Shown here: positions 10,969-12,425 of the stretch, one piece after another
Position numbering within the stretch: position 1 is the stretch's first letter
How the letters are laid out: the number at the start of each line of letters is the position of its first letter
NCBI GenBank assembly: GCA_024274695.1
Contig: JAJSAI010000002.1
Location: 1-18,297 of the forward strand
Source of the DNA: an archaeon
Lineage (GTDB): Archaea > B1Sed10-29 > JAJSAI01
Length of the DNA: 18,297 bases
Reading direction: 5' to 3'
Translations under genes and position numbers: made by a program
The notes under the pieces: model-generated
The model's database searches: none
What the model was told of the DNA's origin: nothing
What the model saw: only the letters and a program-made list of their open reading frames with translations

Positions 10969-11652
10969 CTAGGTGTTCTTGGCTATTCTTGACTTTATTT
11001 CTTTTATCGGGAGTACTGTTGTTGCTATTGGTACTCCTTCTATCTCAGAGATCCTGATTGCTAAGGGATCCACCTTGGGAATATTGTGCAGTACTACCAT
11101 GCTCGGTTTTAGTTTGGTTACTCTGATGGCCACCATCGGGCTTCTTCCCATGCTCACGTTAGTGAATATTAACGCCCTCTCTGTCGTGGACCCGTATATC
11201 TTCACGAACTCGTCGGCAGGAAGCTCGAGAATAGCGCGCAGGGAGTCCACGAATGTTACTCCGAATATTGTGCTGTTCTTCAGTTTTCTTTTGTTCGTCA
11301 CGATCTTGCACTCTATTGATTCGGCAAATTCTAGTCCTGGCATAGGCTTTTTGAACTCCACGACCTCGTATATGTCCTTCTTCTGCTCAGGAGGCGCCAG
11401 GTTTTTGAGGGTCCACCCTCCTCTTTTCCTGTCTATTTCGCACAGCGCTTCTATGAACCTTCTTATGAGCCTGATTCCAGGGCTTTTTCTTCTGTTTGAC
11501 TCGTAGTCAGAAATCGTGCTTGGGGTTACCTTCATCTGCTCTGCGAGCTCTGTTTGGGTTACCCCGAACATTTCCCTCCATTTTTTCAAGCTCGCTCCGG
11601 GATTGTCGGAAAGGGTTATTTCTCCCGCGATCCTCTGGATTATCTCTTCCAT
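10969..11652 (-). CDS. Xre-type HTH transcriptional regulator (COG1709-like)
   Basis: 227 residues. An N-terminal Cro/Xre helix-turn-helix (about 20-75: SLKKWREMFGVTQTELAEQM then TPSTISDYESNRRKSPG) is followed by a C-terminal domain (about 90-227) with alternating strands and the motif ERALIFTNVSMGRSPMVAIR, typical of the archaeal predicted regulator COG1709. The C-domain may sense a ligand. Two ATTAACGT copies flank the TATA box of its own promoter, so autoregulation is likely. A hairpin element followed by T6 lies further upstream on the same strand and could be part of a longer leader. Confidence 0.85.
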   Translation of the reverse strand: MEEIIQRIAGEITLSDNPGASLKKWREMFGVTQTELAEQMKVTPSTISDYESNRRKSPGIRLIRRFIEALCEIDRKRGGWTLKNLAPPEQKKDIYEVVEFKKPMPGLEFAESIECKIVTNKRKLKNSTIFGVTFVDSLRAILELPADEFVKIYGSTTERALIFTNVSMGRSPMVAIRVTKLKPSMVVLHNIPKVDPLAIRISEIEGVPIATTVLPIKEIKSRIAKNT

Positions 11653-11660
11653 GCTCTTAG

Positions 11661-11690
11661 ATTAACGTGACGGGTTTAAATAATTAACGT
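11661..11690 (-). promoter_or_regulatory. promoter of the COG1709-like gene flanked by two ATTAACGT repeats
   Basis: ATTTAAA on the minus strand (11675-11681) lies 23-29 bp before the ATG at 11652. Identical octamers ATTAACGT (plus-strand reading) lie at 11661-11668 and 11683-11690, 22 bp apart, one on each side of the box. A third ATTAACG is at 11855-11861. This is a likely operator set for the adjacent HTH protein. Confidence 0.5.
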
Positions 11691-11743
11691 ATACCTTGTT
11701 TGGGGTGTTAGCCTTCACATAATCAGCGGGTAAAAAAGTGTGG

Positions 11744-11797
11744 TGGAGAGGAGGCTCACCCAAGAGGCCAGGAGTAGAAGCGTTCGGCTCCTCTCCG
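11744..11797. ncRNA. hairpin element E1, related to E2; strand unresolved
   Basis: A perfect 9-bp stem, GGAGAGGAG (11745-11753) with CTCCTCTCC (11788-11796), encloses a 34-nt loop. Three blocks are shared with E2 in the same order: GAGGCTCACCC (11751-11761), CAAGAGG (11761-11767) and GTTCGGC (11782-11788). On the minus strand, a strong box (ATATAAATATTAA, 11827-11839) lies just upstream and T6 (11737-11732) just after the hairpin, making a short transcript of about 75 nt toward the COG1709-like gene. On the plus strand the TTTAAAT at 11675 could also serve, but no T run follows. It may be a small RNA or a leader element. No known family recognised. Confidence 0.45.
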
Positions 11798-11826
11798 TGG
11801 AGAATACGGCAGTATATACATGCCAG

Positions 11827-11861
11827 TTAATATTTATATGCTTTCCGTTAGAACATTAACG
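11827..11861. promoter_or_regulatory. A/T-rich promoter and CGTTA/TAACG inverted repeat
   Basis: The TATA-like run TTAATATTTATAT (11827-11839) is usable on either strand. Next to it CGTTA (11846-11850) and TAACG (11857-11861) form an inverted repeat with a 6-bp spacer. The right arm is part of ATTAACG, the same motif that flanks the promoter of the HTH gene. Confidence 0.4.
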
Positions 11862-11973
11862 AAACGACGTTTGCCGAATGACGTAGAAAGTGCTTTTCTC
11901 GTGCGCAGAAGAGAGATTTTGTTGAGGTTCTAACAAATTATACTGCTTAGGTTAGCATTCTGAACGATCATTC

Positions 11974-11983
11974 TTTTATATTA
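11974..11983 (+). promoter_or_regulatory. TATA box for the E2 transcript
   Basis: TTTTATATTA on the plus strand, predicting a transcription start near 12003-12006, just before the E2 structure. No start codon with a convincing reading frame follows. Confidence 0.45.
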
Positions 11984-12002
11984 CTATAGTGTTTAGAAGT
12001 TC

Positions 12003-12141
12003 GGAGGTGATAGGAGCGCCTCTAAATAGGTCGGCTGTCTGATGAAGAGGTGGGGGGATGAGGCTCACCCGGCCAAGAGGGCTTTGTTCGGCGTCCCACC
12101 CCCTCTGATCCAAACCCCTATTTTAAACGTCTCTATTTTTT
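12003..12141 (+). ncRNA. structured RNA candidate E2 (about 139 nt)
   Basis: The region between the TATA box at 11974-11983 and T6 at 12136-12141 can fold with a closing stem AAATAGG (12024-12030) with CCTATTT (12117-12123). It encloses a GC-rich hairpin starting AGAGG (12046-12050) with CCTCT (12102-12106) and continuing through a G-rich/C-rich arm pair with a few mismatches. The apical part carries GAGGCTCACCC (12060-12070), CAAGAGG (12074-12080) and GTTCGGC (12086-12092), the blocks shared with E1. No gene fits here. Promoter, closing stem and T run agree on the plus strand. It does not match tRNA, SRP or RNase P signatures I know. Confidence 0.5.
12136..12141 (+). terminator. T6 terminator after E2
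   Basis: Six T directly downstream of the E2 closing stem; oligo-T runs are sufficient for termination by archaeal RNA polymerase. The convergent PRC gene ends 41 bp further on. Confidence 0.4.
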
Positions 12142-12182
12142 GTGCACGGGAGAAATTGAGAAAAAAGGAGGTATTCCAGCGC

Positions 12183-12425
12183 TCAGGCTGGGAAGTCTAC
12201 CAGAACGTACTTCCCGAACGCCCGCACGTCCCTGTAAGGGATCTCGAGAAGTTTATCCTTTGTGAGCCTCTGCTGTATTTCAGGGGTCATCTTAAGGGGC
12301 TTTACGAGGACGCTGGTGATTGTCCCTCCTTCTTCAAAGTACGCGTCCACGAGCACTCCTAGTTCTGTGCCGCTCGTGGTAACGACCTTGCGTCCGTTTA
12401 TTTTTGAGCCTAGCACTGTTGCCAT
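12183..12425 (-). CDS. PRC-barrel domain protein (second of a pair)
   Basis: 80 residues, one PRC-barrel: GSKINGRKVVTTSGTELGVLVDAYFEEGGTITSVLVKPL, with the glycine-containing turns and small beta-barrel alternation of the family, ending in a strand VRAFGKYVLVDF. PRC-barrels in archaea are small stand-alone proteins linked to RNA processing or photosynthetic-type assembly elsewhere; the archaeal function is not established. A strong GAGGAGG Shine-Dalgarno lies 9 nt before the ATG, and the previous gene ends 14 bp upstream, so this is the second gene of a two-gene unit. Confidence 0.8.
   Translation of the reverse strand: MATVLGSKINGRKVVTTSGTELGVLVDAYFEEGGTITSVLVKPLKMTPEIQQRLTKDKLLEIPYRDVRAFGKYVLVDFPA

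Follow-up and report, generated by a model that had tools for sequence, protein, structure and literature searches.

A Predicted Pseudoknot RNA Family Shared by Two Archaeal Lineages and Frequently Encoded Divergently from an Lrp/AsnC-type Regulator

RESULTS

Two Related Elements Share an Intergenic Gap

The window analyzed here is a stretch of 18,297 nucleotides from an archaeal contig (JAJSAI010000002.1), in which an intergenic gap of 530 bp (11653–12182) holds two related elements, E1 and E2. The genes and features of the locus are as follows, where R1 and R3 are covariance models and P1, S1, and S2 are helices, all described below.

10969–11652, minus strand: gene for an HTH_3-type regulator (Pfam HTH_3, 6.1e-11), divergent from E1 and E2
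11675–11682, strand unassigned: TTTAAATA, candidate TATA box for either E1 (plus strand) or the HTH gene (minus strand)
11744–11797, plus strand: E1 (local alignment with E2 beats 5000 of 5000 shuffles; R3, 15.3 bits)
11974–11982, plus strand: predicted TATA box of E2 (TTTTATATT), about 20 nt 5' of the predicted start
12003–12141, plus strand: E2, predicted RNA gene from its GGAGG start to its T6 end (R1, 31.4 bits; R3, 44.3 bits)
12003–12023, plus strand: tentative 5' hairpin of E2 (12003–12009 with 12017–12023; minimum-energy fold from the predicted start)
12024–12030, plus strand: tentative closing stem, 5' strand AAATAGG, pairing with 12117–12123 (read from sequence and fold)
12046–12060, plus strand: P1 5' arm AGAGGTGGGGGGATG (six modelled inner pairs, all with two-sided changes)
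12062–12081, plus strand: predicted pseudoknot core GGCTCACCCGGCCAAGAGGG (S1, 12062–12064 with 12072–12074; S2, 12068–12070 with 12079–12081)
12092–12106, plus strand: P1 3' arm CGTCCCACCCCCTCT (same basis as the 5' arm)
12117–12123, plus strand: tentative closing stem, 3' strand CCTATTT (read from sequence and fold)
12136–12141, plus strand: T6, likely termination site
12183–12425, minus strand: PRC-barrel gene (Pfam PRC, 3.1e-10), convergent with E2

A PRC-barrel-like protein, judged by sequence resemblance only, is also encoded downstream of the RNA copy in another genome of the class (G004).

An earlier note on this DNA had described E1 and E2 as two related hairpin RNAs, and the observations it drew on hold up. 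Three blocks are common to both elements in the same order (GAGGCTCACCC at 11751 and 12060, CAAGAGG at 11761 and 12074, and GTTCGGC at 11782 and 12086), the paired arms differ (GGAGAGGAG/CTCCTCTCC in E1, the two P1 arms listed above in E2), and E2 does possess a TATA box, a 7-bp closing stem, and a terminal run of six Ts at the positions given. The likeness is beyond chance. The local alignment scores 39, and dinucleotide shuffles average 18.6 (sd 3.3), with none of 5000 attaining that score; nor did any other 54-mer drawn from the window attain it. The GTTCGGC block is confined to E1 and E2 and is absent as a block of the wider family. The window also returned zero Rfam matches, in agreement with the note, which had recognized no Rfam family. 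The folding energies of E2 (z = -0.27) and E1 (z = +0.33) are ordinary relative to shuffled sequence. Since neither element is in Rfam and neither folds better than its shuffles, comparison alone could decide whether they are RNAs.

The ends of E2 were placed from the TATA spacing and the T6 run. A TATA match of at least 7 of 8 positions is found in all 12 members of the class (shuffle mean 6.5, sd 1.7) and lies 20–25 nt from a GGRG motif in nine of them, which puts the start of E2 at about 12003; in the second phylum introduced below, which is AT-rich, the enrichment of TATA matches is weak (27 of 33, versus 22). We call the closing stem and 5' hairpin tentative because leader folding of this kind does not beat shuffles across the family. 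The predicted 5' end, GGAGGTGAT (12003–12011), resembles a perfect Shine-Dalgarno string as judged against typical 16S 3' ends, and GGRGG recurs at the matching position in most members. Short open reading frames from GGAGGTG or GGAGATG were considered and rejected, as neither frame nor length is conserved. Upstream of P1, a leader GGRGGGATYCAATYCTA is strongly conserved in a set of loci (L062, L081, L082, L086–L089, L093, L106, and L109), with matching changes at Y (C/C or T/T) in one subgroup.

Homologues Occur in One Class and a Second Phylum

When 61 genomes were searched at the DNA level, three belonging to the same class showed short matches, each of them on a single conserved stretch, GGCTCACCCGGCCAAnnGGG. 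A pattern search found this stretch in 10 of the 19 class genomes, and a reversed control pattern gave no match. Because the 3' arm was misplaced in plain MAFFT alignments, the first covariance model (R1) was seeded with three sequences of equal length. Of the 19 class genomes, 11 gave strong R1 matches, one of them two; a convincing match was absent in the other eight, including one that is 98% complete (G008). Outside the class, R1 also matched a locus (L062, in G078) that keeps P1 and has the loop changed to CACCATGCTAATATGGT, with the CCC/GGG pairing replaced by ACCAT/ATGGT. With a model that included this locus (R2), 41 of the 87 genomes from a second archaeal phylum gave a match at E 0.05, and most of these matches were convincing on reading. 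One locus (L090) was left out as it appears coding. The last model (R3), made from an alignment of 40 sequences (A6), was used to scan 394 archaeal genomes, where every match except one fell within the two lineages.

The sole outlier (L112, in G312) was rejected as its sequence reads as 23S rRNA. Also discarded were two further R1 matches outside the class (G313 and G058), which look like chance, and a pattern match in IMG/VR that resembles coding DNA of bacteria. A pattern scan of GTDB contigs yielded only three class members already in the set and chance bacterial matches.

The earlier note had proposed a covariance-model search for homologues elsewhere, and the final tally gives them in 11 of 19 class genomes and, for the second phylum, in 48 of 87, the latter with 56 copies in total. 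Genomes carry one or two copies, with two in one class genome (G003) and in eight of the second phylum (G037, G306, G439, G409, G410, G414, G420, and G425). Among these eight, mostly one copy lies beside an Lrp-type gene and the other elsewhere, and the leader of some second copies reads GAGGTGGTT or GGAGATGGTTT, together with an ACTC-type S2.

Known RNA classes do not account for the element. No Rfam 15 family matched the window or 11 homologous loci at the gathering cut-off, and the best sub-threshold matches under relaxed settings had E values of 1.1 and 7.9. RNase P RNA and SRP RNA have their own separate loci in 15 and 18 of the 19 class genomes, respectively. Nor is there a match to a tRNA-like or box C/D RNA, either of which would have undone the earlier reading: ARAGORN finds no tRNA gene in the window, and the strings resembling C (RUGAUGA) and D (CUGA) boxes that flank P1 in E2 are missing in most homologues. 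The RNA founds a new family that, within the genomes scanned, is limited to a single class and one further archaeal phylum; no description of it was found in the literature searched.

The Conserved Core Is a Long Stem around an H-type Pseudoknot

The part conserved across the family is the long stem P1 around an H-type pseudoknot (AGGCUCACC-NN-GCYAA-NN-GGU), with the signature AGGCTCACC..GC[CT]AA..GG. Helix S1 is GGC/GCC and is followed by conserved unpaired As, and helix S2 is CCC/GGG in the class of the window and a variable ACCNN/NNGGU elsewhere. In an alignment of 12 sequences (A4), 95.4% of cells are paired, all six inner pairs of P1 have two-sided changes, and covariation is 0.594, versus 0.200 after shuffling and no more than 0.126 after sliding. 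The larger alignment A6 has 104 cells with two-sided changes versus 29 in shuffled versions, and a covariation of 0.570 versus 0.202. The changes fall in all six modelled P1 pairs, in two S2 pairs (CG33/UA6/UG1 and CG23/AU15/GC1), and in one S1 pair, the outer one (GC16/GU11/AU4), the remaining two S1 pairs being invariant.

As A6 was fitted to a model that already holds P1 and S2, which biases these counts in their favor, S2 was also tested without an alignment. The five bases before the GC match their own downstream segment with a score of 132, versus 109 for the segments of other members, a value reached in 0 of 5000 permutations, and this result, together with an earlier fit made without S2, partly answers the bias. 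Two interleaved helices with compensatory change are thus found, strongly for S2 and by one pair for S1, as is required of an H-type pseudoknot. Neither helix varies within the class of the window, where the knot is therefore assigned by homology. Loop lengths differ by single bases among class members, which argues against coding.

Six regulator-adjacent loci (L141, L143, L150, L151, L158, and L161) keep P1 and AGGCTCACC and seem to have no second strand of S1 and S2; the knot may have been lost or replaced in these copies.

Support for the RNA family and for its pseudoknot is good and leaves little room for doubt, and E2 is very likely a real structured non-coding RNA. The proposal that selection acts on RNA structure at both elements is borne out for E2, through its homologues and the compensatory changes in P1 and the knot helices, while for E1 it extends only to its relatedness to E2.

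E1 Is Probably a Diverged Second Copy

R3 detects E1 with E = 0.0012 over 651 bases, and R1 does not find it (E 4.2). The element keeps P1 and AGGCUCACCC with a perfect stem of 8–9 bp, and its core has inserted bases and a weak S2. On account of this insertion and weak helix we read E1 as a second copy that has diverged and is probably degraded. It might instead be a specialized variant that works with E2 in one dual-RNA unit, an idea to which the intact P1 and the occurrence of two copies in nine other genomes lend something, and which we nevertheless find doubtful given the state of its core and the fact that no homologue of E1 itself was found.

An Lrp/AsnC-type Regulator Gene Recurs beside the RNA

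A reading of the neighboring genes revealed that an upstream gene of one kind, on the opposite strand, recurs beside RNA copies. Fifteen members that align well were used to build an alignment (A7), whose profile matched AsnC/Lrp in the PDB at 1.4e-7. A structure model of the regulator (pLDDT 88.9) has an order of elements that fits an N-terminal HTH and a C-terminal beta-alpha-beta-beta-alpha-beta RAM domain, as in Lrp/AsnC proteins, which were also its best Foldseek matches (E down to 9e-8). Two members scanned against Pfam gave no match at E 0.001. The partner regulator is, as judged from profile and model, of the Lrp/AsnC fold.

This gene is present in 65 of the 87 second-phylum genomes and is nearly always single-copy. 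It adjoins 34 of the 56 RNA copies, in all 34 cases divergently and across a gap of 158–210 nt; the remaining 22 copies, several of them second copies, are not beside an A7 regulator. The regions upstream of 30 further regulators gave 15 additional model matches at E below 0.01, and more RNAs could be read there by eye, some apparently without the knot; no RNA match was found upstream of the regulator in four f61 genomes. The divergent and adjacent arrangement of a regulator-linked sRNA is therefore conserved across genomes, and as gene order in the second phylum the link is well supported, with high confidence.

Between gene and RNA, inverted repeats of the form TGTA-N5..9-TACA occur in 20 of 30 second-phylum regions (shuffle mean 11, max 19), for a motif that was picked after looking at the regions; they are a possible, putative operator.

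Nearer the window, the pair is present in a genome of the same order (G005; 36% identity, E 3e-48), and AsnC-type regulators of other subfamilies lie beside the RNA copies of two class genomes (G004 and G014). In the window itself the RNA is doubled, its upstream neighbor is the HTH_3 regulator and not an Lrp protein, and the closest relative of the A7 regulator in that genome sits on a different contig. The regulator link at this locus thus rests on analogy.

Other neighbors were also observed. In four class genomes (L049, L051, L053, and L058) the RNA is beside an SMC-like gene, in three of them with a tRNA-like sequence downstream (tRNA-Arg CCT by eye, no call by ARAGORN). At L062, L088, and similar loci in many second-phylum genomes, the convergent gene resembles DNA topoisomerase I by sequence.

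DISCUSSION

Archaeal Lrp genes often adjoin their targets, also divergently, and most autoregulate (PMC2995911), and the enterobacterial sRNAs SgrS, OxyS, and GcvB are encoded divergently from their regulators (PMC4423775). Given these layouts, the simplest reading is that E2 is an independently transcribed sRNA that is controlled by the adjacent regulator and acts in trans, to which, as a whole and by analogy, we assign a probability of roughly 0.6. E2 would be transcribed from its own TATA promoter into a structured RNA of about 140 nt, with the long hairpin P1 and the small H-type pseudoknot in its loop as the heart of the molecule. The regulator would bind the shared intergenic region and so control both its own gene and the RNA, which would act in trans as the output of the regulator. 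The conservation of the knot suggests that a protein or ligand may use it as a docking module, and the variable leader beginning GGRGG may be the part that meets targets. Control by the regulator together with action in trans seems to us somewhat better than an even bet.

Among the alternatives, the RNA could be constitutive, its knot binding a fixed protein partner in an RNP, with the Lrp adjacency merely inherited gene order. The strongly conserved structure, the promoter that the RNA has for itself in the class, and the copies that lie away from any Lrp gene or beside SMC-like genes would all be in keeping with such a particle. We nonetheless consider it unlikely, since a functional link is suggested by the divergent spacing, nearly constant across 34 genomes from many families, by the recurrence of the pair in the order of the window, and by other copies that adjoin AsnC-type regulators from different subfamilies, and since several near-complete genomes of both lineages give no match.

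Several known aptamers have compact pseudoknot cores of a similar kind, and the strictly conserved core here could be taken for a metabolite-sensing, riboswitch-like aptamer acting in cis on a neighboring gene. The position is not that of a riboswitch-type leader, on the same strand and upstream of genes of one pathway: the downstream gene is mostly convergent and differs between genomes, the constant Lrp neighbor is divergent so that the RNA lies outside its leader, and both flanking genes in the window are on the opposite strand, all of which makes this quite improbable. A conserved DNA element, whether regulatory site or mobile repeat, is scarcely credible, even though the sequence occupies an intergenic region shared with the gene for a DNA-binding protein, since two-sided changes preserve base pairs in P1 and S2, the pseudoknot geometry comes with a fixed orientation relative to the TATA box, and one or two copies per genome do not suit a mobile repeat.

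Returning to an sRNA under its neighboring regulator, few archaeal sRNAs are conserved in structure, have homologues in more than one phylum, and can be tied to a clear genetic partner; all three hold for this RNA. Its hosts are small-genome archaea, whose regulation is very poorly known, and annotation pipelines miss it because it is absent from Rfam. The near-constant spacing suggests a hypothesis open to direct test, in which the intergenic region is bound, and the RNA controlled, by the regulator. The strictly conserved pseudoknot provides a handle for finding a protein or ligand. More tentatively, and with the odds against it, the RNA might represent a new class of archaeal regulatory RNA in which the pseudoknot is a sensor for a small molecule or the binding site of a dedicated protein, and which forms with the Lrp-type partner a two-part response module of small-genome archaea. 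If true, this would add to archaea a kind of structured sRNA not described there before, lineage-wide and coupled to a regulator.

Aptamers of the preQ1-I class are small H-type pseudoknots with two short interleaved helices and an A-containing third loop. The E2 knot shares the interleaved short helices and the A-containing third loop, and differs in that it sits inside the long P1, has another sequence with no Rfam match, and is not part of a leader. Among archaeal RNAs, sRNA162 of Methanosarcina mazei is a trans-acting sRNA tied to a transcription factor gene, as is proposed for E2, and differs in pairing with mRNAs via an unstructured linker (PMC3510493). No pseudoknot family or homologue relation between the two was found. 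Archaeal Lrp/AsnC systems with a divergent target (PMC2995911) also have an Lrp-fold regulator that adjoins and diverges from its likely target, which here would be an RNA gene, and the two subfamily members scanned here have no Pfam match at E 0.001. The closest parallel in arrangement is offered by the OxyR-OxyS, GcvA-GcvB, and SgrR-SgrS pairs (PMC4423775), where an sRNA gene and a transcription factor gene point away from each other on either side of a shared intergenic region. No sequence relation to these pairs was found and regulation in the present case is inferred; what sets the archaeal arrangement apart is its archaeal TATA promoter, its Lrp/AsnC-type regulator, and its strictly conserved pseudoknot.
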